DNA of 32,074 bases from positions 1 to 32,074 of IMG/VR virus record IMGVR_UViG_3300037245_000757; one strand, 5' to 3'. Positions within the stretch are counted from its first letter, which is position 1, and each line of letters opens with the position of its first letter. Made by a program: the position numbers and the translations under genes. Positions 960 through 19,979 of the stretch are shown in pieces. A model generated the notes under the pieces. It was not told where the DNA came from. It made no database searches and saw only the letters and a program-made list of their open reading frames with translations. Source of the DNA: a virus.

Positions 960-1274
960 ATGAAAATCAATTGGCATTTTATAATTGCGATGATAATAAA
1001 CACTGCGTTATGGGTTGGGTTGATTTTACTCCTCAACGGCTGCAAGTCAACCAGCGAGACGACGACTGTCAAACTTAAAGGTGACATCGTATTCCAAAAT
1101 ACGATCAAGAGCGATTCTTTCATGTACTGGACCCGGGCGAGCGGTCTTAAACATTCCACACCTTTTACCTTAACTGCAATTAACAATATCGAATCTGCAC
1201 CTGACCCTAACGGTATTGAGGAGGTCAGTGACGGGGCTGTAAATGCGTTCTTGCGGGCGTTAGGGCTATTTTAA
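960..1274 (+). CDS. predicted lipoprotein, 104 aa
   Basis: A positively charged start, a hydrophobic stretch at residues 7-25 and a lipobox ending LNGC with cysteine at residue 28 predict lipidation by Lgt and cleavage by signal peptidase II. The mature part is about 77 residues, hydrophilic, with no recognised domain. It directly follows a small TM protein. Phage lipoproteins include Rz1-type outer-membrane spanins and superinfection-exclusion proteins; this one is not notably proline-rich, so neither role can be assigned. Confidence 0.65.
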   Translation: MKINWHFIIAMIINTALWVGLILLLNGCKSTSETTTVKLKGDIVFQNTIKSDSFMYWTRASGLKHSTPFTLTAINNIESAPDPNGIEEVSDGAVNAFLRALGLF

Positions 1275-4120: not shown

Positions 4121-6187
4121 ATGCCAGATGAAACATTAGCACATCCAAAAACGGACAATGAGATACTCGACAAGGTCGTAGAGTTCCGCAAGACCGCTTC
4201 GGGATCCTTCAATCAATACGACCGTATGCGCAAGGCTGAGAACTTTGTTATAGGTGGCGAGCTTCAATGGGACGAGAGCGTAAGGCTTAAAGCGAAGGAC
4301 CAAGGCAAGTTTACGCTGTCAATCCCGATAGTCAAGGCACAGATCAAGCAGATTGCCGGTGGTGAGATACAGAATCCACAGGACTTCATTGTTGAGAATA
4401 CCCAGGGCGGTGCTGCTGCAATAGCTAACGTCCTTACAGCATTGACAAAACAGGTGGGTGACTCTGAATCAGTGCGATATGAGAAATCGCAGATGTTCGA
4501 AGCTGGCTTGTCGTCAGGGCAGGGTGTTATCGGCATATTTATAAATAAGACCGACGATCCCAAGCATGGCGATCTTACTATCAAGAAGCTAAACGAGCAT
4601 AATTGCTTATTTGATAGAAATGCTCAGTCATACGACCAGAACGAAAAAGGCACAGGTGGCCGGTTTGTCATCTATGAGGAATGGATTGAAAAGGATGAGG
4701 TTGAAACTGAATACCCGGACAAAGCGGATGAACTGGCTGTAAGTGGAAGCAGTACGTCCCGTGGACTCTTGGCGGGCATGAAAGACGCTATTATTGACTG
4801 GATGGTGGGAGGGGACAGGAATAATAACAACGAGCGAGGTTCGTTTGGCGATAGAAACCGCAATGATCTCGATGACGTAACTCGTAACCGATACTTGAAA
4901 TCACACACATACTGGAAAGAGTATATAAAAGCCGTCCATTGGTTTGATAACCGGGAATCGGATCTTGACTCAAAACTATTACTCAAAGATAGCGAGATTG
5001 CCGCAGCAAAGAAAGCCACCAAAGCAAACCCAGAGATATTCAGCATTGAGGAAGTGGACACGTTTGTCATGCACCACACTATCAGGGTGGGCGATACGTT
5101 CTTGGAGGATAGGGTTGACGAGATGAACGGGGTTCAGATGTTTCCGATTATCCCGTTCTGGCCTTACTGGATAAACGGCTACAAATCAGGTATTGCCGAG
5201 GACTTGATCGGTACACAGGAAGAAATCAACTGGTTCCATTCGATGACCGCGAACCAGGTCAAGCAGAATAGTTACCAGCCGGTGATTGTCAAAGAGGACC
5301 GTACGGGCGATAAAGCTGATGATCTCAGGGATATGCTTGGCAAGGGACAAAGGGCTGTGATCAACGCCGATGATTACGGCGGCAAGGTCGAGTTTGTTAG
5401 TCCACCGCCATTCCCGAACACGGAAGTAATTGTCAGAGAATCAATGAACAACGTCAAAACGATCACCGGGAGGCTTGATATCCCCGAATCTGACCAGAGG
5501 GCGTTATCCGGTACGGCGAAGAAAGTTGATGTTGCGAAAACACAACAAGGATCCGCTTCGATATTCAGCAACTTCAATTATTCACTCGCAATGCTCGGAA
5601 ATCTTATCGTTGAGATAATCCGCAAGAATGACATATTCAGCGAGGACGAGATTAGGGCAACGATCGACAAAGAGGACTTGATCGATGGAGATATTCTCGA
5701 CCAGGCGATGGGAATCGTGATAAACCAGCTTCGGCAGCAGGGAGCGAATATACCAGGTCCGCCACCTGCCATAAACCCGGTCAGGGCGAGTATGGCAGCA
5801 AAGAATCCAGAACTACAAGCGGAAATACTTGACACTTTCAACGACGAGACTGAGTTTTATGGTCAGTTTGTCAATCAGGTCGAGCAAGCAGCGATACCGA
5901 TCGCCGAGGATATAATGATAAACCTGATCGGCCAGCGTAAGACCGGCAAATACAACACAAAGATGACCCTATCGCCGATGAGCGAGACGATGCGGACTAT
6001 CAAGGCGATTCAGATATTTGAACTTCACAGGACCTTGCGAGAAGCGGGCGATGTTGGTTTGAACCCAGAAGACTTAATCAACTCGACTGATGCTCCGAAC
6101 AAGGACGAACTTATCAAGGGTAGAAAGAAATTGCTTGCCAGTATTTCGGCATCAGCGGACGACGTTTCTGTTTCGAGGAGTGCTTAA
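4121..6187 (+). CDS. portal protein, P22-like
   Basis: This is the dodecameric portal that forms the packaging and ejection channel at one capsid vertex. Its 688-aa length matches podovirus P22-type portals rather than the 450-550 aa of most siphoviruses. Supporting patterns are the N-terminal helical region with GGELQWDE near 45-52, LSIPIVKAQIKQIAGGE near 66-82 and LFDRNAQSYD near 163-172 (the P22-type region where xDPxAxxxD-like residues occur). A long C-terminal helical crown also carries Gln-rich segments. AAGGAA precedes the start by a normal distance. It directly follows the large terminase, as expected. Confidence 0.88.
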   Translation: MPDETLAHPKTDNEILDKVVEFRKTASGSFNQYDRMRKAENFVIGGELQWDESVRLKAKDQGKFTLSIPIVKAQIKQIAGGEIQNPQDFIVENTQGGAAAIANVLTALTKQVGDSESVRYEKSQMFEAGLSSGQGVIGIFINKTDDPKHGDLTIKKLNEHNCLFDRNAQSYDQNEKGTGGRFVIYEEWIEKDEVETEYPDKADELAVSGSSTSRGLLAGMKDAIIDWMVGGDRNNNNERGSFGDRNRNDLDDVTRNRYLKSHTYWKEYIKAVHWFDNRESDLDSKLLLKDSEIAAAKKATKANPEIFSIEEVDTFVMHHTIRVGDTFLEDRVDEMNGVQMFPIIPFWPYWINGYKSGIAEDLIGTQEEINWFHSMTANQVKQNSYQPVIVKEDRTGDKADDLRDMLGKGQRAVINADDYGGKVEFVSPPPFPNTEVIVRESMNNVKTITGRLDIPESDQRALSGTAKKVDVAKTQQGSASIFSNFNYSLAMLGNLIVEIIRKNDIFSEDEIRATIDKEDLIDGDILDQAMGIVINQLRQQGANIPGPPPAINPVRASMAAKNPELQAEILDTFNDETEFYGQFVNQVEQAAIPIAEDIMINLIGQRKTGKYNTKMTLSPMSETMRTIKAIQIFELHRTLREAGDVGLNPEDLINSTDAPNKDELIKGRKKLLASISASADDVSVSRSA

Positions 6188-6596: not shown

Positions 6597-6618
6597 CTTT
6601 TAATTGGAGAACGAAGAA

Positions 6619-7077
6619 ATGAAGCTTGAAATGTGGAAAGAAAAGTATTGTCATAAAAACAGCAAGGCGTGGGCGATAAATGTATGGGCTAGGGGATTGT
6701 TTATACAACTTGGGCTGACTAGGTTGACGATTCCATTCTTCTGGAAGAAACAATCGACGGCAGTTTTGTTCATGTTGGTAATAGCTGTGTGCGTTGCGGG
6801 ATGCGAACCAGAAACAAAGTACATAATCCCAAACGTGTACGAGTGGCAACCAGCCACAAAGCTTATCCTGCTTGACAATGGTGTCGACCATGAGGATATA
6901 CACGATTGCCTTGTGTGGGCTTTCGGCGAGAATTACGACAGGTTGCCACTTAATGAACTCGATGACAAGTGGCGAGAACTGCATAGCGATTCGTTTGAAA
7001 TAGCAGGTTACGATTGCATTATCGAATCGACAAAGAAAATAGGCGTTGCGTATTTAGCAAAAGGAGAACAAGAATGA
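6619..7077 (+). CDS. predicted lipoprotein, 152 aa, with long N-terminal extension
   Basis: A hydrophobic stretch ends in the lipobox VAGC with cysteine near residue 62, followed by EPE. The segment before it (about 45 residues, including several aromatic and basic residues) is much longer than a standard signal peptide. An internal start could therefore give a shorter form, although GGAG at 6606-6609 fits the ATG at 6619. The mature domain (about 90 residues) contains DCLVWAF and acidic patches with no known family. The next gene carries a nearly identical lipobox region (AVCxAGCEP), suggesting the two are diverged paralogues. Confidence 0.6.
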   Translation: MKLEMWKEKYCHKNSKAWAINVWARGLFIQLGLTRLTIPFFWKKQSTAVLFMLVIAVCVAGCEPETKYIIPNVYEWQPATKLILLDNGVDHEDIHDCLVWAFGENYDRLPLNELDDKWRELHSDSFEIAGYDCIIESTKKIGVAYLAKGEQE

Positions 7078-7424
7078 ACAGTCCACAAGAAACACCAGAC
7101 CAAGTTTTAGCGACAATAGTAACTCGGCTTCTTTTTATCGTAATAACAGCAGTTATGTTAGCGGTGTGCCTTGCGGGGTGCGAACCGTCTGAATCGCTAA
7201 TCACAATAGGAGATACTCCGAAACCTACGGTGATATACATACCAGACTCGCCGGAAAGTACATTTACGACAACACAGATTGACCCGGAAGCCTGCATAGC
7301 CCATGCGATAGAGCCACGGTACGAAGATACTGAATCTGCCGATCCTAACGAATGGGTGATTGATACTGACGACTACATTGTTATAGAAGCTGAAATTAAA
7401 CGAAGAATTGGAGAACTGAAATGA
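7074..7424 (+). CDS. predicted lipoprotein, 116 aa
   Basis: The start at 7074 overlaps the previous stop as ATGA and follows AAAGGAG; an upstream in-frame ATG at 7014 lies inside the previous gene and is rejected. A hydrophobic stretch at residues 15-34 ends in the lipobox LAGC with EP after the cysteine, like the gene before it. The mature part starts with a Ser/Thr/Pro-rich linker followed by an acidic domain. Outer-membrane or periplasm-facing location is expected; the role is unknown. Confidence 0.65.
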   Translation: MNSPQETPDQVLATIVTRLLFIVITAVMLAVCLAGCEPSESLITIGDTPKPTVIYIPDSPESTFTTTQIDPEACIAHAIEPRYEDTESADPNEWVIDTDDYIVIEAEIKRRIGELK

Positions 7425-7828
7425 ATAGAAAGATAATTGCTCTATTTATAATGCTTGCACTGTTATGCCTTACGTTAACCGGTTGCACTGAAACTCAGAA
7501 GTTCGGTAACGGCGATCCGAGTGCTGAATACATAAGTATGTTCGGCAATGACAACACGGACAGGTTGAACTGGACACAAGAACAGAGGATAACGTGGATT
7601 CTTCAGGCTATAACTGAACAGAACGAGCTTTCGAACAGGATTGCTAACGCATTGGCGAATTTGAGCGAGCGGGTTAAAGTGCTGGAAAAACCGAAAGCCG
7701 AAGATCATTCGAAGTGCATCCTAAACCTCGACGGAAAATGCTGCACGGTCAAGGGGTGCAAGGTGGCGAATCCGGATGTACCCGTTGACCCATGCAAGAA
7801 TACTGATCCGAGATTCAAAAAGAGGTAA
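7421..7828 (+). CDS. predicted lipoprotein with coiled coil, 135 aa
   Basis: This is the third lipoprotein in a row, overlapping the previous gene as ATGA. The signal MNRKIIALFIMLALLCLTL leads to lipobox LTGC with cysteine at residue 22. Residues about 60-90 (TEQNELSNRIANAL onward) form a heptad-like helix suited to oligomerisation. The C-terminal part has five cysteines (KCILN, KCC, GC, PC), which could form disulphides outside the cytoplasm. A lipoprotein with a coiled coil is compatible with a spanin, but this cannot be settled from sequence. Confidence 0.65.
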   Translation: MNRKIIALFIMLALLCLTLTGCTETQKFGNGDPSAEYISMFGNDNTDRLNWTQEQRITWILQAITEQNELSNRIANALANLSERVKVLEKPKAEDHSKCILNLDGKCCTVKGCKVANPDVPVDPCKNTDPRFKKR

Positions 7829-9880: not shown

Positions 9881-11224
9881 ATGTTTAATTTTATTATGGA
9901 CTTTACCAAGCAGGGCATGAAAGACCGTGCTATGGCAAAGCAGGCAATGGCTGTTGACTATTTGGGGCTACCAACCCCACTTAGACAGTTCTTTGTCGCC
10001 ACCAGCTATGAGTTTGGTGATCCCCGAGCACAGACCGCGTGGTCTGATGCAGTTTACGCCTTTGGCCTTGAGAATATGTTCTTTACACCCTTCATAGGTG
10101 CCAAGAATGACAAAAACGCTCTCATCGTCACAGACAATGAACTGAAAGACCGTCCCGGCGGAACTATCATCTTTGAAGCCCACGTAAAACTGTCCGGTGG
10201 CGGACAAGGCGATGACGGCAACACAACCGGTAAAGAAGCTCAGATCAAACGCAGGAATATGTCTATGACCTTACATCAAAGGTCACAGTCTACCGTTTCT
10301 GCGGGTGCTATGAGTGAACAGTTGACGCGGTCGAATTTCCGTGCTGACAGCCGGAACGATCTTGGCGAATGGCTTTCCGAGGCTATGGAAGATGATCTCA
10401 ATACGTGTGCTAATGGCACGTATAACGAGAACTCCGGCGGATCGGCAATTCAGACTGTCAACGAGTCCTATCCTACTTCTGACCGCATTTATTACGGCGG
10501 ACAGGCTGCGGACGGTACTCTCGGCAACAGTGGTACAAGTCTATTGAGCGATGCACTTCTGACGGCTGGTACTCAGGCAAGCAACCTGATGGGTACTGTG
10601 CTCATGGAAGCTATCAAACGCCGGATGACCGCAGCGATACCGCGTTTCCGTCCAGTGGCACTCCATGACTTGACAAAGGCGAATCCTGACGATGCAAGGT
10701 CCGGAAAGAATCTCGGCCCTGTCCTGGCGAAAGTGTTTATCGTCCTGATGAGTCCATTGCAGATCAAGTCCATAAGAGCCGAAACAGGCGAATTGGGCTG
10801 GAAGGCAATGCAGCGAGACGCCAACGTCCGCGGTAATCTGAACCCGATTTTCTCCGGTGCTTCATTCTATCACGACGGAATGTTGGTATTTGAGTATGAC
10901 CGCACAGCTATAAGGACCGGAGCCGGTGGTACAACCCTGGCCGAAGGTTTTCTGCTTAACGCAGGGCGGACGGCCACAACCGACGCTTGTGCTTCCGGCA
11001 GGACTGTTGCCAGATCCTTATTTATGGGTGCTCAGGCTATGGCGTTTGGATGGGCGAAGAAACCATCGTGGTCCGAAGACATGGTTGATAATGATATTCC
11101 TAAGATCAAAATCAACCAGATATACGGAACCAAAAAATCAATCTTTAACGCTCATGGAACGGAAACTCCTGGAAGCGACGAGGCTATATTCACCGTCGAT
11201 ACAGAAGTAATCGTTGACGCATAA
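9881..11224 (+). CDS. major capsid protein, N4-gp56 / DUF4043-like
   Basis: This is the shell-forming HK97-fold protein. The pattern is that of the N4-gp56/DUF4043 group: TAWSDAVYAFGLENMFFTPF near residues 48-67, then PGGTIIFEAHVKLSGGGQGDDG near 92-113, and an RRNMSMTLHQRSQSTVSAGAM segment after it. EWLSEAMEDDL lies near 165 and a large C-terminal domain follows. The length of 447 aa is usual. AAGGAGC precedes the ATG; an internal ATG at 9896 is less well placed. Most copies are needed from this gene, and its ribosome binding site can form a small hairpin. Confidence 0.85.
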   Translation: MFNFIMDFTKQGMKDRAMAKQAMAVDYLGLPTPLRQFFVATSYEFGDPRAQTAWSDAVYAFGLENMFFTPFIGAKNDKNALIVTDNELKDRPGGTIIFEAHVKLSGGGQGDDGNTTGKEAQIKRRNMSMTLHQRSQSTVSAGAMSEQLTRSNFRADSRNDLGEWLSEAMEDDLNTCANGTYNENSGGSAIQTVNESYPTSDRIYYGGQAADGTLGNSGTSLLSDALLTAGTQASNLMGTVLMEAIKRRMTAAIPRFRPVALHDLTKANPDDARSGKNLGPVLAKVFIVLMSPLQIKSIRAETGELGWKAMQRDANVRGNLNPIFSGASFYHDGMLVFEYDRTAIRTGAGGTTLAEGFLLNAGRTATTDACASGRTVARSLFMGAQAMAFGWAKKPSWSEDMVDNDIPKIKINQIYGTKKSIFNAHGTETPGSDEAIFTVDTEVIVDA

Positions 11225-11244: not shown

Positions 11245-13122
11245 ATGAAGAAGTTTACTATTATTTTAATGCTTGCCTTACTGTTTGGCACAGTACAGGC
11301 GGGAAATCGTTTCGGTGATGTGTACCACGAGATACAGATTGTCGATGAAAATGGCGAGAAGGTAGACGATATTACAAATCTGTTTATCTATCTTGCCGGA
11401 ACTACAACCGACGCTACGATCTATATGGACGAAGCCAGGCAGAATACTATAACTATACCGATGACGGAAGCTTCCACGAACACAACCCTTACAGATGGGA
11501 AGGTGTTCTGGTGGGGTCCTGATAAGTATGATTTTAGTATGACGAACGGCGATGGAGTTGGTCCCCGGACAAACTCTGGACATAGGGATCGAGCGTCTAA
11601 CGAAGGCGAAATACAGTTTCCATCGTATTTACAGTCGATAAGCTCCACGAATTATACGGACGCACAGACTATTACGATGGGAACGGGTGCCGACTGGGTT
11701 TTTCAGGCTGGCAATGTAGCTAATCGACTTTCGTTTACACCGGCTGCTGATGATTCTACGTTTAACATTGGTGTATCAGGGACGGGTCTAAACTCTAATT
11801 TCAATGTCTTTAACGGCACTGCTTTGGGGTTTAAGTTGAGTTCGGCAGGTGCTACACACTCGCTGACCTATGACGGTGGAATAGTGAACTTGAACCCAAG
11901 TTCGAATTTCGCTACCAATATCTGTACCGGTACATCAACAGGTGCTACTACTATCGGTAATTCGGCTGGTGGTGCAATTGCACTCGATACTGATACCAGT
12001 ATTACGGTTAATGCTGATGATTCGTATGCGTTGACGGTATCTGCTGGTGCGGTGACTATAGCTGCTGCCGGAGCATCGGCGGGCGATGTAACGCTGACAG
12101 CTGCTGATATAATGTCATTTATATCGACTGACACAAAGCTGTTTAACGGTGCTGCTGCTGAGACATGGATTGTCGAAGGTACTGCTGACGATCACGAAGC
12201 AACTATCGTGTTTACTGACCCTACCGCTGACGTAACTTGGACATTTCCAACCGCGGCGGCTGACACGTTTGCTGTAATGGCTTCGACGCTTGCGACAAAC
12301 GCACCTGAGATCGTTAATTCGGTATCTGGTGGAACTAATCAGCTTATCTATGAAGGTACAGCAGATGCAAGCGAGTGTATTTTGACCGCTGCCGATGCAA
12401 CCGCGGACGTGATTTACACGTTACCAGATGCAGCCGCAGCCACTTATGGCATAATGCCGTCGTCTTTGGCTACGAACGCTGTTGATATTGCGAACTCGGT
12501 AACAGGTGGAACAAGCCAGCTTGTCTTTGAAGGTGCGACCGCTGATACCGAGGAATCGATAATTCAGGCTACCGATCCAACGGCTGATATAATCTGGATT
12601 CTTCCGGATGGAGCGGCTGATTCGTTTGCGTTTGTTGGTTCAACTTTAACGACCAATATTGCAGAGGCAGCTAATTCGTTCTGGGGTGGTACTAACCAGA
12701 TCATCATGGAAGGTGCGACTGCCGATGCGTTCGAGACGATCATAACTCCGAACGACGCGACCGCAGATGCTACGATAGAACTTCCAGACGATTCAGGCGA
12801 TATAGTCTACGCTCCATCGGGCGTAGTTGATTATGCTGCTGGTGCGGGTGCGTTGCCGATCACGCATACGATAATCACTTACGAGAGTACAGGCGGAGCT
12901 GAGGCATTGACGTTGGCAGACGGTCAACCTGGCCAGATATTATCAGTCAACCATGACACCGATGGCGGTAACGGCGTAATCACGCCAGCAACCGCGTTAG
13001 GTTATACGTCTATTGATTTGGCTGATGATGGCGATATGGTTACGTTTCAGTTTGTAGATACACAAGGATGGATAATTATTGGTACGGCTGGTAACGCAGC
13101 TCCACCTGTAGTTACTCCTTAA
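11245..13122 (+). CDS. capsid-adjacent repetitive fibre or decoration protein with signal peptide, 625 aa
   Basis: The N-terminus looks like a classic Sec signal: MKK, a hydrophobic core (residues 4-16) and a VQA cleavage site after residue 19. It is followed by a beta-rich domain (20-130), a Gly/Thr/Ala/Asp-rich beta region, about 3.6 repeats of 59-60 residues (311 onward), and a C-terminal domain from about 527. The C-terminal domain contains AEALTLADGQPGQILSV and WIIIGTAGNAAPP, a module I associate with phage head fibres. Position right after the capsid gene supports a head-fibre or decoration role. Composition is strongly Asp/Thr/Ala-rich with few Lys, as in secreted adhesins. A signal peptide on a cytoplasmically assembled virion protein is unexpected. 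Confidence 0.65.
   Translation: MKKFTIILMLALLFGTVQAGNRFGDVYHEIQIVDENGEKVDDITNLFIYLAGTTTDATIYMDEARQNTITIPMTEASTNTTLTDGKVFWWGPDKYDFSMTNGDGVGPRTNSGHRDRASNEGEIQFPSYLQSISSTNYTDAQTITMGTGADWVFQAGNVANRLSFTPAADDSTFNIGVSGTGLNSNFNVFNGTALGFKLSSAGATHSLTYDGGIVNLNPSSNFATNICTGTSTGATTIGNSAGGAIALDTDTSITVNADDSYALTVSAGAVTIAAAGASAGDVTLTAADIMSFISTDTKLFNGAAAETWIVEGTADDHEATIVFTDPTADVTWTFPTAAADTFAVMASTLATNAPEIVNSVSGGTNQLIYEGTADASECILTAADATADVIYTLPDAAAATYGIMPSSLATNAVDIANSVTGGTSQLVFEGATADTEESIIQATDPTADIIWILPDGAADSFAFVGSTLTTNIAEAANSFWGGTNQIIMEGATADAFETIITPNDATADATIELPDDSGDIVYAPSGVVDYAAGAGALPITHTIITYESTGGAEALTLADGQPGQILSVNHDTDGGNGVITPATALGYTSIDLADDGDMVTFQFVDTQGWIIIGTAGNAAPPVVTP
12175..12822 (+). repeat. tandem ~177-bp coding repeats (59-60 aa units)
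   Basis: Units begin at 12175, 12352, 12529 and 12709, each opening with EG(A)TAD. They share a DPTAD or DATAD core, a hydrophobic strand, a proline and a GGT(N/S)Q end. The last copy is partial. The units have diverged at DNA level, indicating an old expansion rather than recent slippage. Confidence 0.8.
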
Positions 13123-13134
13123 ATTTATTCTGGA

Positions 13135-13187
13135 CTGAGGCCCGATCTTTTGTTCTCCAACTGAAGATCGGCCTCAGATCCTTTTTT
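13135..13187 (+). terminator. strong rho-independent terminator inside the virion module
   Basis: A stem of about 14 pairs with one bulged C (CTGAGGC at 13135 pairing with GCCTCAG at 13171-13177, then CGATCTT with AAGATCG) is followed shortly by TTTTTT at 13182-13187. It directly follows the fibre gene, so the head genes are probably transcribed more than the tail genes downstream. Confidence 0.85.
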
Positions 13188-13198
13188 CGAGGTGAAGC

Positions 13199-13798
13199 AT
13201 GGCTTTCATAAACAAAGACGACATAATCGAGGACGTCAACGAGAACCTTGGTTTAAACGCTTCCGACACAGACCTTGACCGCCAGATTAACAAGGTTTTG
13301 AGTGATCTGAGCAAAAAAGGGTTGTTGATCGATACCGATGATACGCAAACGCTTGACGATGGCGATACGACGCTCAACTGGCCTACCGGCTACAGGTCAA
13401 CGTTTAATATAACTCTGACCGACGCAGGCGGCACAGAAAGAGAACCACTTATTAAATTGCCAGGAGGCATTAAAGAGTATCGCCAGAAAATCGCACACGG
13501 TTCGACGGCAGGGATTCCACGATGGTTCGCCGAGTTCGAGGGTAAGTTCTATCTCTGGGGTACTGCTGGCGAGGCTTATACAACCCTTATAGAATTCAGA
13601 AAGAACCATCCAAAGGATCCGAACAATATCGAATTTGACACAGACTTTGAAAATGTGATGTTTGCCGGCGTTACCTACTGGAAGGCGGCAGCACTCACGA
13701 GATCGAACGCAGTCGCAATATGGAAACCGATATACGACCAAGAAATGAAAAAGGTAGTATTAGACAGAAGGAATCAGCCATCATTAATGAGAGGATAA
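13199..13798 (+). CDS. candidate head-to-tail adaptor (P22 gp4-like position), 199 aa
   Basis: The pattern fits podovirus connector or adaptor proteins. An N-terminal helical pair has a DLDRQINKVLSDLSKKGLL region (residues 24-42), a NWPTGYR turn follows, and the middle carries GIPRWFAEFEGKFYLWG with AYTTLIEFRKN after it. That is the usual 'P-x-Y/F, then beta strands' arrangement of head-completion proteins that dock under the portal. CGAGGTGA precedes the start. It comes right after a terminator, the first gene of the tail block. Confidence 0.6.
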   Translation: MAFINKDDIIEDVNENLGLNASDTDLDRQINKVLSDLSKKGLLIDTDDTQTLDDGDTTLNWPTGYRSTFNITLTDAGGTEREPLIKLPGGIKEYRQKIAHGSTAGIPRWFAEFEGKFYLWGTAGEAYTTLIEFRKNHPKDPNNIEFDTDFENVMFAGVTYWKAAALTRSNAVAIWKPIYDQEMKKVVLDRRNQPSLMRG

Positions 13799-13802
13799 AA
13801 AA

Positions 13803-14036
13803 ATGAACAAGCACCCTTTAAAATCAAAAACAATGTGCGGAATTTTTACCGTTATAATAATCGCCCTGATGAATATAATGGGCGTAGGCGAAGCTGAGAT
13901 CGGCAACACTTACGACACTATTACTAATTCCACAGGCCAGAAAACGGAATCAGCAAAGGACATCGGCCTCGTCGTCGGTGGTGCGTTCGCTGCTTATGGC
14001 CGTTACAAAGTGAAAGGCGGAAAAGATGAAGAATAG
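13803..14036 (+). CDS. small membrane protein, holin-like, 77 aa
   Basis: A basic N-terminus leads to a hydrophobic helix at about residues 12-29. A polar loop, a second weakly hydrophobic glycine-rich helix (DIGLVVGGAFAAYGRY, 53-68) and a charged C-terminal tail (KGGKDEE) follow. Two helices with a charged tail resemble class II holins, but a minor tail membrane protein is also possible. GAGAGGA precedes the ATG. It overlaps the next gene by 11 bases. Confidence 0.5.
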   Translation: MNKHPLKSKTMCGIFTVIIIALMNIMGVGEAEIGNTYDTITNSTGQKTESAKDIGLVVGGAFAAYGRYKVKGGKDEE

Positions 14037-15720
14037 AAAAACTTTAAATTGGAAAATAACTGCGATGGTATCTGTCTTTGTGATGGTACTTTTAATCGCC
14101 TCTTATGGTTACGCAGTCGTCTACACAAACCTGATCGATACCAGCAAGCCAGCAGGTACGGACGATCCCCGCGAAGCTGATGACAACATGCGTCGGATTC
14201 AGGCTGGATTTCAGGAGATACTTGACAAAACCCACGACTTTGAATTGACCGGAACTATCATAACAGGAACAGGCTACCATAAAACCCCGTATGACGTAAG
14301 GATTGAGGAGGGCGTTGACCCAACAGGAGTAACAGACTCCTACGCGGCCATACAAGCGGCTCTTGACTCAGGAGCAAGTAAGGTGATTATGCCACATGGC
14401 GATTACAAAGTATCACAGCCAGTAAGAGTCGACGCGAGCGTTCAGTTGGTTGGAGAAAGTTCATCCTCGAATAGCGGAACGATTATATTCCCTGATTTAT
14501 CAGTTGATTGGGCGGTTGCGTTTCCAGACAGGGGAGTAATAGAAACCAGAAACTTTGATTGGCCTACGGGGTATCCTGGCGGGTCGGTTAAACCCGATTT
14601 CTGGCATTGGGGTAGTATTGAAAATTTACAGGTCAAATGCAATAAAGACCCCCTCTTTGCTACATTCCCAGCAAGGGTTCCTGATTACGGTATAGTAATC
14701 TGGGCCGCTGGAGAGCAATCGCTTCTGAGAAGAACGCAAGTGACAAACGCAACAAAGGCTAATTATCTACTTGGCGGATTCATGGCCGTATTGCAGGTAG
14801 AAGATTGCGGCGGGTCTAATTCAGGTAGCGGTTATGGCGTAACAATGACAAACCACCCGAACATTAATTTTGCACCCGGAGTGTCCAGCAGAGATGGAGG
14901 CAGGGGTAACGGCGGTTCAATTCGGTTTATAGGTTTCTCAGGTGACGGTAATCCACTTGGCCTATTGCATGCAGACGGTACTCAGATAGTAGATTGCATT
15001 GGATTAAAAAGCGAAAGTCAAGAGCCTGCAATAACCATTGGAGGAAGCAGTGCAGCTAATGCCAGGCAAAGATGGAGCATTACAGGTTATCGACATGAGG
15101 CTGGTGCGTCAGTTGGTGATTTTCTTCGGATTGATGACACTGCTAAACCTCAAGTATTTATCGGTCCCGGCCAATGCGCCAACTCCGTTAATCTTTTGAA
15201 CGACACAGTAAGTAGCGTTGTAATTCCAAAACAAGCCGAGGGATTTATATTGTTCTACGACAGAGATCAAGACTACCAAGTACGGTCGCGGTTCGGGACT
15301 TTCCCGGGAAGTGCAAAATTCCAAAGTAATGTCGATGGTGACGGTGCTCAAATAGAGGTAGCGTGGGGCGGTGACGGTTCTCCAGACACAACCAGCAGAC
15401 GGACTACTTTAGATGTTAGGAACGCTGTACCGGCAATAAGAAGGTACACCGGACTTGCTGCATCCAAGAGAATTATTTGGAGTGTTGATTTTGCGTCTAC
15501 CGGTGACAACTATATGTTATATGCTTACAACGGAACTGATACGGAAGCTATCGTTAATATGGACAGCAACGGAGATACTGCGTCTGTCTCTATCGGCCTT
15601 GACCCTGCACAAAAAGTCGGCTTCTACGGTACAACTCCTGTAATACAGCAGTCAGTGACAGACCTCAATACGTTACTAATAGCACTTGACGCTTTAGGAA
15701 TAATAGTGGACGGAAGATAA
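14026..15720 (+). CDS. tailspike / receptor-binding protein with pectate-lyase-like beta-helix and signal anchor, 564 aa
   Basis: The domain order is clear. Residues 1-30 are a positively charged hydrophobic segment with possible YGYA cleavage. Residues 31-75 are a common phage fibre module (NLIDTSKPAGTDDP, then ADDNMRRIQAGFQEIL). Next comes a right-handed beta-helix typical of Pectate_lyase_3, starting at GVDPTGVTDSYAAIQAALDS (about 92-111) and running to about 400. A C-terminal module with GFYGTTPVIQQ ends the protein. Such spikes bind or degrade surface polysaccharide. No catalytic residues can be assigned by eye. The hydrophobic N-terminus is unusual for a tail protein. Confidence 0.75.
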   Translation: MKNRKTLNWKITAMVSVFVMVLLIASYGYAVVYTNLIDTSKPAGTDDPREADDNMRRIQAGFQEILDKTHDFELTGTIITGTGYHKTPYDVRIEEGVDPTGVTDSYAAIQAALDSGASKVIMPHGDYKVSQPVRVDASVQLVGESSSSNSGTIIFPDLSVDWAVAFPDRGVIETRNFDWPTGYPGGSVKPDFWHWGSIENLQVKCNKDPLFATFPARVPDYGIVIWAAGEQSLLRRTQVTNATKANYLLGGFMAVLQVEDCGGSNSGSGYGVTMTNHPNINFAPGVSSRDGGRGNGGSIRFIGFSGDGNPLGLLHADGTQIVDCIGLKSESQEPAITIGGSSAANARQRWSITGYRHEAGASVGDFLRIDDTAKPQVFIGPGQCANSVNLLNDTVSSVVIPKQAEGFILFYDRDQDYQVRSRFGTFPGSAKFQSNVDGDGAQIEVAWGGDGSPDTTSRRTTLDVRNAVPAIRRYTGLAASKRIIWSVDFASTGDNYMLYAYNGTDTEAIVNMDSNGDTASVSIGLDPAQKVGFYGTTPVIQQSVTDLNTLLIALDALGIIVDGR

Positions 15721-17570
15721 TGTCAAGAGATTTCGGAATACTATCTGAAAAGTTGAATGTCCAAGAGTCGATACCAAGTATCTTGACTCCAGCGGCATTC
15801 TTGCAGGCTGAAAGTCGAAATGTTTTCGAGCAGCATGGAGAATATAAAGCTTTGCGTGGTAGGCTTGCAGCGTTTCAGGATGCTAATCAGGTGAACATCT
15901 TGGCACCTTCGGATGTTTACGCGATCACAAGCATCGTCTCAGGCACTAAGACCATAAACATCACAGGCGATCACTCGGCGGGCAACACAGTTTTAACAGT
16001 AGGTGCGACTATTAGGATCAACGGAGGCTCGACCGCTGGCAATGAGACAACGTTCACGGTTGCAACCCTGCCGACAACGGGATCATTAACAACCGTCGAA
16101 GCCATTGCCGCCGATGCGATACCCGGAAATCTGTTCGTCGGTGCAACTCCAATAATCAGACATCATAAACACACAAAACAGCAGACCGGCGTCGAGTATT
16201 TACTTGTCGGCACAAGGTACAACATCTTTTTATGGACTAACGCCGATAAGACATTGGCCGTCAAATTCACAACCGGATCGGTAGCAGAAACAACACATTG
16301 GGATATACTTACCCACCTTGATAATGTTTACGCAACAAACAATATTGATGTAATCCAGAAGTGGGATGTTAGGGATGATCCGAATAACAACTTCGCGGCA
16401 CTCAATAATGTCCTAGGTCTTGACATTGACGGAGCGGGGACCAGGCTGACAGCTTGTAAGTACCTTGCATCATTCGAGGGGTATCTATTCCTGTTTTATA
16501 CTACTGAGGGCGGAGGTGCGAATAACGTCAACCCGCAGCGAGGTCGTTGGTCATCCTTGCGTAACGACAGTGACTTCAACGAGAACAGTGCCGGCGATGC
16601 GGGCAAGAGACAGTTTGACAATACACCGGCGTTCATCGCGGGCGTTGGAAAAAAGGATTCAACTCTTTATGTGTTTACCAACGGCGATAAGCCTGTTACT
16701 TACGCCGGATGGCTAACTACCGAGGACCTTGTTTTCGTATGGGACGAAAAACAGATTCAAACAGGAGCTATTTCGCCAGATTGCATTTTAAACGACAAGG
16801 CAGGCGATCTGTATTATCTGGCGAATGACCTTACTTTCAGAGAGATCGATACACCGTTCTCGTTAAGTGTACCGGTTGATAAGATTCTAAGGAATGTTAA
16901 TATTGAGTTTGTGGGTTTAGCGCAGGCCACATATATAGACGAGTTCGGACATATTTACATATCAGTCCCAACCGGTAGCAGTGAGACGAATAATACGATC
17001 CTCGATATGACGGTCAGTGATAAGACTTGGAACATCCACGACATCCCGGTCCGGGCGTTTGGTGATTATACACGGCAGGAAGTATTTACTTATAATTCCC
17101 TGCCATACGCTACCTACGACGATTGGGGCGAGGCATGGAAGGTATACGACACGAACGTAAACGTGTTGGGCTTTCCTCTTGACCTGGCATCTGATTACTC
17201 AGGCGGCACGTTTGAACTTCACGCAGCGTTTAACGATGCTGGTGCGGACTATACCAGATCATTAGTTATCGGCACCGACTTTAACGCTTTTCAGGTTTTC
17301 AAGCGGGTTAATAATGGCGTTGACCTGTATTTTAACCGTGAAGCGGCGGGCAACGTAAATGTTTTCATAAAAAGGGATCTCGAAGCAAACTGGCAGTTGG
17401 TCGGAGTCGCATCGCTCGTAGATACGAGCCTTCCGGATCCGGATGTCGTTGTCGTGCATGTTCCGTTTGATACCAGAGCGAAATACTTAAAGATAAAACT
17501 TGAAAGCACTGATTATTTTGAATTCATCGGAGCGGTATTTAACGAATTTGAATTGGATGGATATCGATGA
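15720..17570 (+). CDS. candidate tail nozzle / DNA-stabilisation protein (P22 gp10-like position), 616 aa
   Basis: A long beta-rich protein starting in a TAATG overlap. A region near residues 25-50 with the arrangement AESRNVFEQHGEYKALRG resembles the opening of podovirus nozzle proteins. Many blades of the type YLLVGTRYNIFLW, FEGYLFLFY, DSTLYVFTNG and DLYYLAND suggest a beta-propeller. A C-terminal galactose-binding-like beta domain (DYSGGTFELHAAFNDAG, then YLKIKLES) completes it. P22 gp10 is shorter (about 470 aa), so an added C-terminal domain is likely. Assignment rests on fold pattern and gene order (adaptor, then spike, then nozzle). Confidence 0.5.
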   Translation: MSRDFGILSEKLNVQESIPSILTPAAFLQAESRNVFEQHGEYKALRGRLAAFQDANQVNILAPSDVYAITSIVSGTKTINITGDHSAGNTVLTVGATIRINGGSTAGNETTFTVATLPTTGSLTTVEAIAADAIPGNLFVGATPIIRHHKHTKQQTGVEYLLVGTRYNIFLWTNADKTLAVKFTTGSVAETTHWDILTHLDNVYATNNIDVIQKWDVRDDPNNNFAALNNVLGLDIDGAGTRLTACKYLASFEGYLFLFYTTEGGGANNVNPQRGRWSSLRNDSDFNENSAGDAGKRQFDNTPAFIAGVGKKDSTLYVFTNGDKPVTYAGWLTTEDLVFVWDEKQIQTGAISPDCILNDKAGDLYYLANDLTFREIDTPFSLSVPVDKILRNVNIEFVGLAQATYIDEFGHIYISVPTGSSETNNTILDMTVSDKTWNIHDIPVRAFGDYTRQEVFTYNSLPYATYDDWGEAWKVYDTNVNVLGFPLDLASDYSGGTFELHAAFNDAGADYTRSLVIGTDFNAFQVFKRVNNGVDLYFNREAAGNVNVFIKRDLEANWQLVGVASLVDTSLPDPDVVVVHVPFDTRAKYLKIKLESTDYFEFIGAVFNEFELDGYR

Positions 17571-17851
17571 GTTTTTTACCTAGAAAACTCAAACTTGATC
17601 GGCCTGGCATTAAGGTTCTGTTTAGCTGGAAGGCGTTACAGATATGGCTTGACAAGCTGGTCGTTGCTCTTGAGGAAAGTTACCAGTTGCAAAGAGATTT
17701 CGTCATGGGTAACACGGCAGGAGAAACGTCAAACTGGAAGATACGAGAAGCGACGGCAGCGGATGTTACCGCCAACCAAGCGAGAGCGGTAGGTAATTTG
17801 ATAGTAGTAAACAAAACTACAGGAACAAAGTGGGAATATGAAGCATCTTAG
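17567..17851 (+). CDS. hypothetical small tail-module protein, 94 aa
   Basis: The start overlaps the previous stop as ATGA and the end overlaps the next gene by 14 bases. The middle is helical with WKALQIWLDKLVVALEESY (residues 22-40); the end (AVGNLIVVNKTTGTKWEY) looks beta. It has no recognised family. Translational coupling on both sides suggests a minor tail or fibre-assembly protein. Confidence 0.6.
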   Translation: MSFLPRKLKLDRPGIKVLFSWKALQIWLDKLVVALEESYQLQRDFVMGNTAGETSNWKIREATAADVTANQARAVGNLIVVNKTTGTKWEYEAS

Positions 17852-19979
17852 TCTAATATTATTGATGGTATTTTCAGCGTCCGGCAATGTCACTTATGAC
17901 GACCTTGAACCGGCCACGACGAACACCTACGATCTAGGTGCTGCATCCTTCCAGTGGAAAGATGCTTACGGTGACGGTGTGCTTGATTGGGACACTATAA
18001 CAGACGGTACGTTCTCAGTAACAGCAGGCAACTTCACAGGCGTAGGCAACATCACCGGTACAGATATTGATATTTCAGCAGGGACGGGAAGTTTTACGGG
18101 ATCTGGCGTAAGCACGTTCGGCGGTGCTATTGTTAGCGACCTTACCGCCTCATCAGGCGTTTACACCGACGCATCGAAACAACTTACAAGCACACCGCCA
18201 ACATCAGGCATTTTAGGCCACTGGACACGAGCAGGCACAGTTCTTGGTACGGCTGTTGTTGGCGATGATATAGTCACCACAAGCTTAATCCAGGGCATGC
18301 GAGGGATTTTTACCGGCTCAGTTCCTACCCCAATGCTCATACTAGAGCAGACAAGTGCAATCAGAGATGCCATATTACGGATAACCCATACTGACACAAG
18401 CAAGAATATCAGTATGGGCATAGATCAGGTTGATAGTAAGTTTAAGATTTCACTGAGCACTGCCCTTGCCGTAGATACATGGCTAACCGTTGACGCAAGC
18501 TTTGACGCGGTGATGGCTGGCGATTTACAGCTAAAAGATAACGGTTTTCTTGGTATTCCCACAGACCCAAACCTTATGCAGTTGGCTCTTAATGCTGTTA
18601 CGGTTAATGGTGATTTAAGGGTAGATTCTATAGGTATCGGAACGGCCCCTGACCCCGCTAATGCACAACTAAAAATTGATGGTACAGTCCAGACAGCGGT
18701 GGGTTTTTCTACGATTGAAACATCAACAACTTTAGAACCAACTACGCCAAACCTAGCTCTAAATGGTGTTGAGTTTACCATGAACCTTGCAAACTCGCCA
18801 GAGAATGTAACCAAACTCGTAGGTGGGTTTGGTGGACTTGCTGTCTCGAACACATATACCGGAACTATTGCCGATGCAAGGGTATTTGAAGCCGCTGGTG
18901 TTATACAAAGAGGCGTGTCTGGCGCCACCATTACAAGATGGGCTGACTTCTACGCAAGCAACCCATTGCTATCCGGTGGCCCTCCAATAGCTGGTGATAT
19001 TGAGACGTTGTACGGTTTGTACATTGAGGATATGACTTCTGGCAGCGTGGCTAATTGGTCAATCTACTCGCTTGGCGGCAACATGGCACACGCTGGCAAC
19101 GCCCGCTTCGGCGATAACACAGTGCCGACACACGCCCTTGAGGTTGCGGGCGATGGCACTATCTTCTTTAAAGAAACAACAACGCCAACGCCTCTGGCTG
19201 ACTTCGGGGCAATCTACACCAAGTCAAACAATGAATTATTCTTTCAGTCGGGCGATGGCGTAGAACATTTACTACATGGTGATGCTTTTTCAAATATTTG
19301 GTTTCATTCCACCTCAGACGTAGATGTTACTATCGCAACACAAGATATTTACACCCTGATAGATTCTTTTACAGTAGTCGGACATGAAGACGATTTATTG
19401 AATGTTGTGGGTAATACTACAACAAATACATTGACTCTTTCTTCTATGGCTGGTGGTGAGTACGAAGTTTCTTATCACGGTTCTATTACTGCGGCAGGCG
19501 GCCAGGACAAAGAGATGACGTTTGCAATGGGGATTACGTTAGCTACTCCGAAAGACATAACCGATGTAACGGACAATGGAGTTTCCCCGATAGTCGTCAC
19601 GTCCGTAGCTCACGGTCTGGAAGATGGCGATATGGTCGAGATTGTCGGAGTACTGGTGAATACCAATACTAACGGCTCGTTTATAGTTGACAACAAAACT
19701 AACGACACTTTTGAAATTGTTGATTTAGACGGTTCTGCTACAACCGGCAACGGCGACTATGACGAGGGCACTCCTACCGGCGATATTACAATAGAGTACC
19801 CCGGAAATATGGAAGTTCATCGTATGGTAAGAGGTGCAGATTTTGGGTCAATTTCAGCCACAGGACTCCATGTGTTAGCTGGTGGTGATGTTTTAGCTAT
19901 ATACGTGGCAAACCTTAGCGGCACAACCAATTTAACCGTTTCGTCGATCAGCTTTAGTTGTTTTAGGATTGGTGATTAA
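17838..19979 (+). CDS. large tail fibre protein with short signal-like N-terminus, 713 aa
   Basis: A short hydrophobic start (MKHLSLILLMVFSASG) looks like a signal peptide. It is followed by a fibre-type motif TNTYDLGAASFQWKDAY (about 28-44), seen in phage and environmental fibre proteins, and by long Gly/Thr/Asp-rich beta regions with repeated 'dGsv' units. A segment DVTDNGVSPIVVTSVAHGL (about 576-594) precedes a DGDMVEIVGV strand, a common beta-sandwich insert. The C-terminus has EYEVSYHGSITAAGGQ and an ALAIYV-type end reminiscent of C1q/TNF-like trimerising heads. It probably acts in host recognition. Confidence 0.65.
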   Translation: MKHLSLILLMVFSASGNVTYDDLEPATTNTYDLGAASFQWKDAYGDGVLDWDTITDGTFSVTAGNFTGVGNITGTDIDISAGTGSFTGSGVSTFGGAIVSDLTASSGVYTDASKQLTSTPPTSGILGHWTRAGTVLGTAVVGDDIVTTSLIQGMRGIFTGSVPTPMLILEQTSAIRDAILRITHTDTSKNISMGIDQVDSKFKISLSTALAVDTWLTVDASFDAVMAGDLQLKDNGFLGIPTDPNLMQLALNAVTVNGDLRVDSIGIGTAPDPANAQLKIDGTVQTAVGFSTIETSTTLEPTTPNLALNGVEFTMNLANSPENVTKLVGGFGGLAVSNTYTGTIADARVFEAAGVIQRGVSGATITRWADFYASNPLLSGGPPIAGDIETLYGLYIEDMTSGSVANWSIYSLGGNMAHAGNARFGDNTVPTHALEVAGDGTIFFKETTTPTPLADFGAIYTKSNNELFFQSGDGVEHLLHGDAFSNIWFHSTSDVDVTIATQDIYTLIDSFTVVGHEDDLLNVVGNTTTNTLTLSSMAGGEYEVSYHGSITAAGGQDKEMTFAMGITLATPKDITDVTDNGVSPIVVTSVAHGLEDGDMVEIVGVLVNTNTNGSFIVDNKTNDTFEIVDLDGSATTGNGDYDEGTPTGDITIEYPGNMEVHRMVRGADFGSISATGLHVLAGGDVLAIYVANLSGTTNLTVSSISFSCFRIGD

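Follow-up and report, generated by a model that had tools for sequence, protein, structure and literature searches.

Predicted Sec signal peptides on tailspike-like and fibre-like proteins of an uncultured clade of short-tailed phages

Why should the putative tail appendages of a tailed phage begin like exported proteins? The assembly of tailed phages is taught as cytoplasmic, and the question is raised by a 32-kb uncultured virus record (IMGVR_UViG_3300037245_000757; 32,074 nt, analysed in full and called the window here) in which three proteins of the virion module open with predicted Sec signal peptides: a 625-aa tailspike-like protein (F1), a 564-aa spike, and a 713-aa fibre (F2). Our comparison confirms, at the level of sequence, that the observation extends from the window to an uncultured clade of short-tailed phages. 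The best explanation, to which we give a probability of about one-half, is that these proteins are exported and cleaved, and then dock onto tail hubs at or after lysis.

Signal peptides were called with a plain rule (not SignalP) that requires a positively charged n-region, an uncharged hydrophobic core of at least eight residues, and small residues at −3 and −1; among 6384 internal windows it fires at a background rate of 0.64%, and on shuffled N-termini at 0.5–0.7% for F1 and F2 and at 9.8% for the longer hydrophobic spike. The original prediction that all three proteins open like Sec substrates stands, as the rule calls each at its annotated start; the open reading frames were confirmed at 11245, 14026, and 17838, and a Shine-Dalgarno-like site lies upstream of each. 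F1 begins with MKKFTIILMLALLFGTVQA followed by GNRFGD, with a predicted cut after residue 19 and a predicted mature end that is GNRFGDVYHEIQ-like and follows A-X-A. The spike begins with MKNRKTLNWKITAMVSVFVMVLLIASYGYA (hydrophobic at 13–26) followed by VVYTN, with a predicted cut after residue 30. F2 begins with MKHLSLILLMVFSASG followed by NVTYDD, with a predicted cut after residue 16; having A at −3, G at −1, and a short core, its signal is the shortest and weakest of the three. The rule calls no other window virion protein of at least 190 aa at its own start, and its other calls there fall on lipoproteins, on two small membrane proteins, and, in one false case, on a downstream start inside TerL. 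The listed F1 signals and the window spike and F2 signals contain no RR pair of the Tat motif, and none of the three window proteins shows a start codon at its mature N-terminus. A lipoprotein reading was rejected; F1, the spike, and F2 of the window carry no type II lipobox, which was found only on other small genes.

A capsid-protein search of viral contigs, blind to F1, returned 26 loci, and in all 16 that were readable the gene following the capsid gene opens with a signal peptide. This set was extended by loci found with the F1 mature domain and by one contig of a bacterial metagenome-assembled genome (MAG); it includes the near-identical pairs L007/L031, L030/L032, and L034/L035. By our own rule a signal peptide is present in 25/25 F1 homologues, each with the n-region, core of 8–16 residues, and −3/−1 residues expected of a Sec/signal peptidase I substrate (window F2 is weaker in these features). 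On the same contigs the rule calls none of 34 major capsid proteins (MCPs), 27 scaffold proteins, 21 portals, 15 adaptors, or nine nozzle proteins; two of seven TerL proteins are called from downstream starts inside the ATPase, which we read as false. The expectation that tailed-phage virion proteins normally lack signals was likewise borne out, with one weak match among 114 virion-module genes of nine reference phages (SU10, T7, P22, BPP-1, HTVC010P, and four distant capsid relatives).

The F1 signals have a mean pairwise identity of 26%, versus 53% for the mature domain, and nearly all keep a basic n-region (KK or RK), a hydrophobic core, and A-X-A or a close variant; 20 of 22 contain no acidic residue, and all have A or G at −1. 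AAAGGA or AAGGA Shine-Dalgarno-like sites precede most signal starts. Codon comparison between relatives (pooled pS 0.38, pN 0.18) indicates that the signal is under purifying selection, that is, selected as protein sequence. Further contigs carry one to four signal-bearing genes between MCP and adaptor and one to five between nozzle and internal proteins. The predicted signal peptides are thus present, conserved in their features, selected, and confined to appendage genes; because of this confinement, export is the simplest reading.

The other two genes follow this pattern to different degrees. Signals are present in the fibre slot of nearly every relative (window, L004, L006, L009, G396, G397, and G398), with up to five genes per contig in L050, L103, and L110; the slot of L007 contains a signal-like stretch with no standard start. 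Members of the spike family have the mature domain TPAGSDDPxEADDRxRExKAA in common, but the family is mixed: about 13 of 22 members have a hydrophobic start, and nine open directly at the mature domain (L002, L007, L032, L035, L050, L053, L060, L103, and the MAG prophage L084). A hydrophobic start common to homologues therefore holds for F1 and almost throughout the fibre slot and for only some of the spikes; the situation named as counting against export, a homologue whose start lies beyond the hydrophobic segment, occurs among spikes and not in F1. A small membrane-protein gene lies upstream of nine of 13 signal-bearing and one of eight signal-less spikes (L006 judged by eye). This gene was considered as the origin of the spike signal and rejected, the correlation being weak and uncorrected for kinship.

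The original prediction had likened the mature proteins to secreted adhesins; that likeness gives way to one with tail appendages bearing predicted export signals, whose route to the particle is an inference. An AlphaFold (AF2) model of the F1 mature N-terminal domain, built with 23 relatives, has a pLDDT of 78. Its best Foldseek match in the PDB is the tail complex of the cyanopodophage Pan3 (probability 1.00, E 0.04), and VIA gives Z values of 7.0 for Pan3, 6.3 for Pam1, and 5.7–5.9 for the head-binding domain of the P22 tailspike (gp9; 1LKT). A viral structure library adds matches to pectate-lyase and tail-fibre proteins of tailed phages. The match opens at residue 9–10 of the model and residue 9–14 of the target, so the predicted cut would give an N-terminus of the usual tailspike length. 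F1 thus resembles the P22, Pan3, and Pam1 chains in predicted fold and register, and the window virion module is itself of the P22-portal, SU10-adaptor type; in those phages, however, the domain opens the chain, whereas in F1 a signal stands in front of it. These moderate Z values are no proof of family. Pfam and PHROGs returned no credible family for the F1 N-terminal domain, and a PDB sequence profile gave no match; the model suggests that it is a docking domain.

The F1 body belongs to no recognised family; GGTNQLIFEGxTADxxExxI repeats at 12124–12804 (F1 residues 294–520) resemble proteins of Pelagibacter phage HTVC008M, the remainder of F1 being unmatched there. A pectate-lyase-like tailspike motif (PF12708) is found only in the 564-aa spike, whose full-length model (pLDDT 36) was not used. 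F2 has a variable body and a tip common to the window and G397; a module of about 70 residues at 19527–19769 (F2 residues 564–644) resembles PF16190 (E1_FCCH), and a similar module occurs in Vibrio and Pelagibacter phage tail proteins. From domains and models, then, F1, the spike, and F2 look like tailspike or fibre proteins, that is, virion appendages. No signal-less spike or fibre gene was seen in the window, so the three are likely its receptor-binding set. A tblastn search for isolate homologues of the F1 N-terminal domain, spike N-terminal domain, nozzle, and N-terminal part of F2 returned only repeat and short-motif matches.

How could exported proteins reach a particle whose head is filled in the cytoplasm? 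In P22, addition of the tailspike is the last, independent step of assembly, and tailless heads accept tailspikes in vitro. Given a docking-like domain at the mature N-terminus, exported spikes could join hubs in the same way at lysis. We propose that the appendages of this P22/SU10-like podovirus clade are made as Sec substrates: late in infection they would be translated with a signal peptide, cross the inner membrane, and be cut by signal peptidase, which would expose the docking domain at a new N-terminus in the register of the natural N-terminus of signal-less tailspikes. The spikes would fold in the periplasm while heads fill in the cytoplasm, and would meet the tail hubs at or after lysis, once the membrane is broken, so that spike docking would be the last assembly step. 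Export, cleavage, periplasmic folding, and docking after lysis are here inferred. The broader proposition is that throughout the clade particle construction is divided between the cytoplasm, where heads are filled with DNA, and the periplasm, where spikes and fibres arrive by Sec export and are trimmed by signal peptidase, the two coming together only at lysis; we consider it slightly less likely than not.

Virion proteins made with Sec signals are familiar from the coat proteins of filamentous phages, which are assembled in the membrane during extrusion. Those particles are non-tailed, unlike the tailed phage described here with its portal, terminase, and signal-less head proteins. Searches of open papers found no tailed phage described with signal peptides on tailspikes or fibres, and a survey states that phage variable proteins are without signal peptides (PMC6199706).

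Several observations weigh against docking of exported appendages. All the evidence consists of genes and predicted structures, and Z values of 5.7–7.0 can also be reached by unrelated beta-sandwiches; the same VIA list holds several pilin-type domains, along with WceF, a tailspike-like protein that stands behind an export signal and serves outside any virion (PMC7949094). A 327-aa fibre-slot protein of G398 lacks a signal. Spikes lack signals even in close relatives such as L002 (87% MCP identity), and the L033 and L035 spikes are alike in the N-terminal domain and differ by the signal, so export is not needed for the spike gene. Sister prophages in the order of planctomycetes to which the MAG belongs have small or fibre-like genes without signals.

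The chief rival, which we consider unlikely but well worth retaining, is that Sec exports the proteins but they stay out of the virion and work in the periplasm or at the surface of the infected cell. There they might, for instance, trim or bind surface glycans, which would keep progeny from being trapped, or block superinfection. WceF of Pantoea stewartii provides the precedent: a P22-tailspike-like head domain stands directly behind a cleaved Tat signal, much as the docking-like domain of F1 follows a predicted Sec signal, and the enzyme modifies exopolysaccharide (PMC7949094). WceF is, however, a cellular enzyme, a beta-helix trimer encoded in an exopolysaccharide cluster; F1 belongs to a phage virion operon and has a body of no recognised family, and the copies examined lie in virion modules of viral contigs rather than in such a cluster, the MAG contig L041 carrying the same virion genes. 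Signal-bearing genes of Porphyromonas gingivalis phages, of unknown function, follow the Bacteroidetes Q rule and are read as envelope modifiers (PMC10367356); like F1, which has Q at +1 in 8/23 homologues, they are suited to export by the Sec system of the host, in some cases with the same residue at +1, but they are not described as tailspikes or fibres. Several lipoproteins encoded in the same late region would also suit a surface role. Against such a role, the window would then hold no obvious receptor-binding protein, the genes lie in relative after relative at the two appendage positions of the virion module, and fibres that dock on virions typically combine a conserved N-terminal domain with a body that varies.

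A dual fate is less probable still. Export would be inefficient or regulated, with a cytoplasmic pool built into virions in the normal way and an exported pool serving a second job in the envelope. The coexistence of spikes with and without signals in close relatives favours this, since some members must have a mature protein that functions after synthesis in the cytoplasm. F1, however, is never found without a signal, the window proteins show no second start codon where the mature part begins, and the cleavage sites are kept although a cytoplasmic pool would not need them.

Improbable, too, is the proposal that the hydrophobic starts are uncleaved inner-membrane anchors for appendages or assembly intermediates, or ends buried in the virion. 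The spikes of L013 and L033, with long hydrophobic starts and no clear cleavage site, would fit it, as would, weakly, the small membrane-protein gene often upstream of the spike; the membrane-anchor alternative of the original prediction is conceivable for such spikes. It fits F1 and the fibres poorly: short h-regions and A-X-A-like sites are kept in F1 and most fibre-slot proteins, and with a positive n-region the rest of the protein would be expected to cross the membrane, which would separate it from a virion in the cytoplasm. That the signals are an artefact of start choice or hydrophobic composition is formally conceivable only for single cases such as window F2, given a simple rule and a short signal, and is very improbable overall and rejected for F1 in view of the Shine-Dalgarno-like sites, the codon-level selection, and conservation in every homologue against zero in most core genes.

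A GTDB scan gave a single match: a contig (L041) of a Planctomycetota MAG whose capsid protein is 64% identical and whose F1 has a signal. The contig carries the same virion genes. Capsid relatives occur in eight of 161 genomes of the order of the MAG, several at E 1e-52 to 1e-60, and in five of 392 genomes sampled from the phylum, of which only the MAG itself gives a match stronger than 1e-17. Among 397 genomes of the class, the F1 domain was found in none besides the MAG. The host is likely a member of the Planctomycetota, although the short length of the MAG contig leaves room for mis-binning. A Bacteroidota host is disfavoured by the Shine-Dalgarno-like sites. Because the related prophages in the same order lack signals, the trait is one of the phage clade rather than of its host, and a host requirement was rejected as its sole cause. 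One planctomycete genome (G475) has no fewer than five related capsid genes, each on its own contig (C12, C29, C30, C33, and C60), representing several prophages or fragments; in these and in contigs C231 and C254 of G814, the next gene, where readable, is fibre-like and without a signal.

If exported appendages do dock at lysis, receptor-binding proteins could be matured via the export path of the host, where periplasmic folding, oxidation, or glycosylation would be available, and the last assembly step would fall at lysis. For annotation, a signal peptide beside phage genes does not by itself point to a host or moron gene. With F1 always and the spike sometimes bearing a signal, the clade offers natural pairs for testing the role of the signal.

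Table 1. Principal features of the window and the observations attached to them
Feature	Coordinates	Strand	Basis or remark
F1, 625-aa tailspike-like appendage protein	11245..13122	+	between major capsid protein and adaptor; signal in 25/25 relatives
F1 predicted signal peptide MKKFTIILMLALLFGTVQA	11245..11301	+	rule call, conservation, codon selection
F1 mature N-terminal domain, docking-domain-like fold	11326..11601	+	AF2 model, Foldseek, VIA
564-aa spike, pectate-lyase-like (PF12708) motif	14026..15720	+	E 3.9e-7
Spike predicted signal peptide or signal anchor, ending YGYA	14026..14115	+	rule call
Spike mature N-terminal TPAGxDDPxEADD domain	14116..14300	+	alignment; signal-less in L002, L007, L032, L035
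F2, 713-aa fibre	17838..19979	+	slot between nozzle and internal proteins
F2 predicted signal peptide MKHLSLILLMVFSASG	17838..17885	+	rule call, relatives
Major capsid protein (Phage_capsid_3, phrog_334)	9881..11224	+	without signal; control
SU10-type adaptor	13199..13798	+	E 6.7e-11; without signal; control
77-aa small membrane (holin-like) protein	13803..14036	+	overlaps spike start
616-aa nozzle-like tail protein	15720..17570	+	without signal in 9/9 relatives; control
P22-like portal (PF16510 P22_portal)	4121..6187	+	E 2.8e-42; without signal; control

The virion module runs in the order TerL, P22-type portal, lipoproteins, scaffold-like protein, major capsid protein, F1, SU10-type adaptor, 77-aa membrane protein, 564-aa spike, 616-aa nozzle-like protein, a 94-aa protein, F2, and internal proteins (Table 1); its portal (E 2.8e-42) and SU10_adaptor (E 6.7e-11) matches mark a podovirus-type tail hub. 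Three tandem lipoprotein genes (lipobox AGC/TGC) lie between portal and scaffold at 6604–7828, and another lies near the left end of the window (960–1274); lipoproteins are also encoded in the corresponding region of L004, L005, L050, and G397. In outgroup contigs without appendage signals (L053, 12351–13238; L112, 14096–15004), the equivalent of the internal 263-aa protein has a signal-like start. The TerL gene of L068 (5695–8145), the contig of L004, encodes 816 aa with an intein-like insert after GGAKGGSK.

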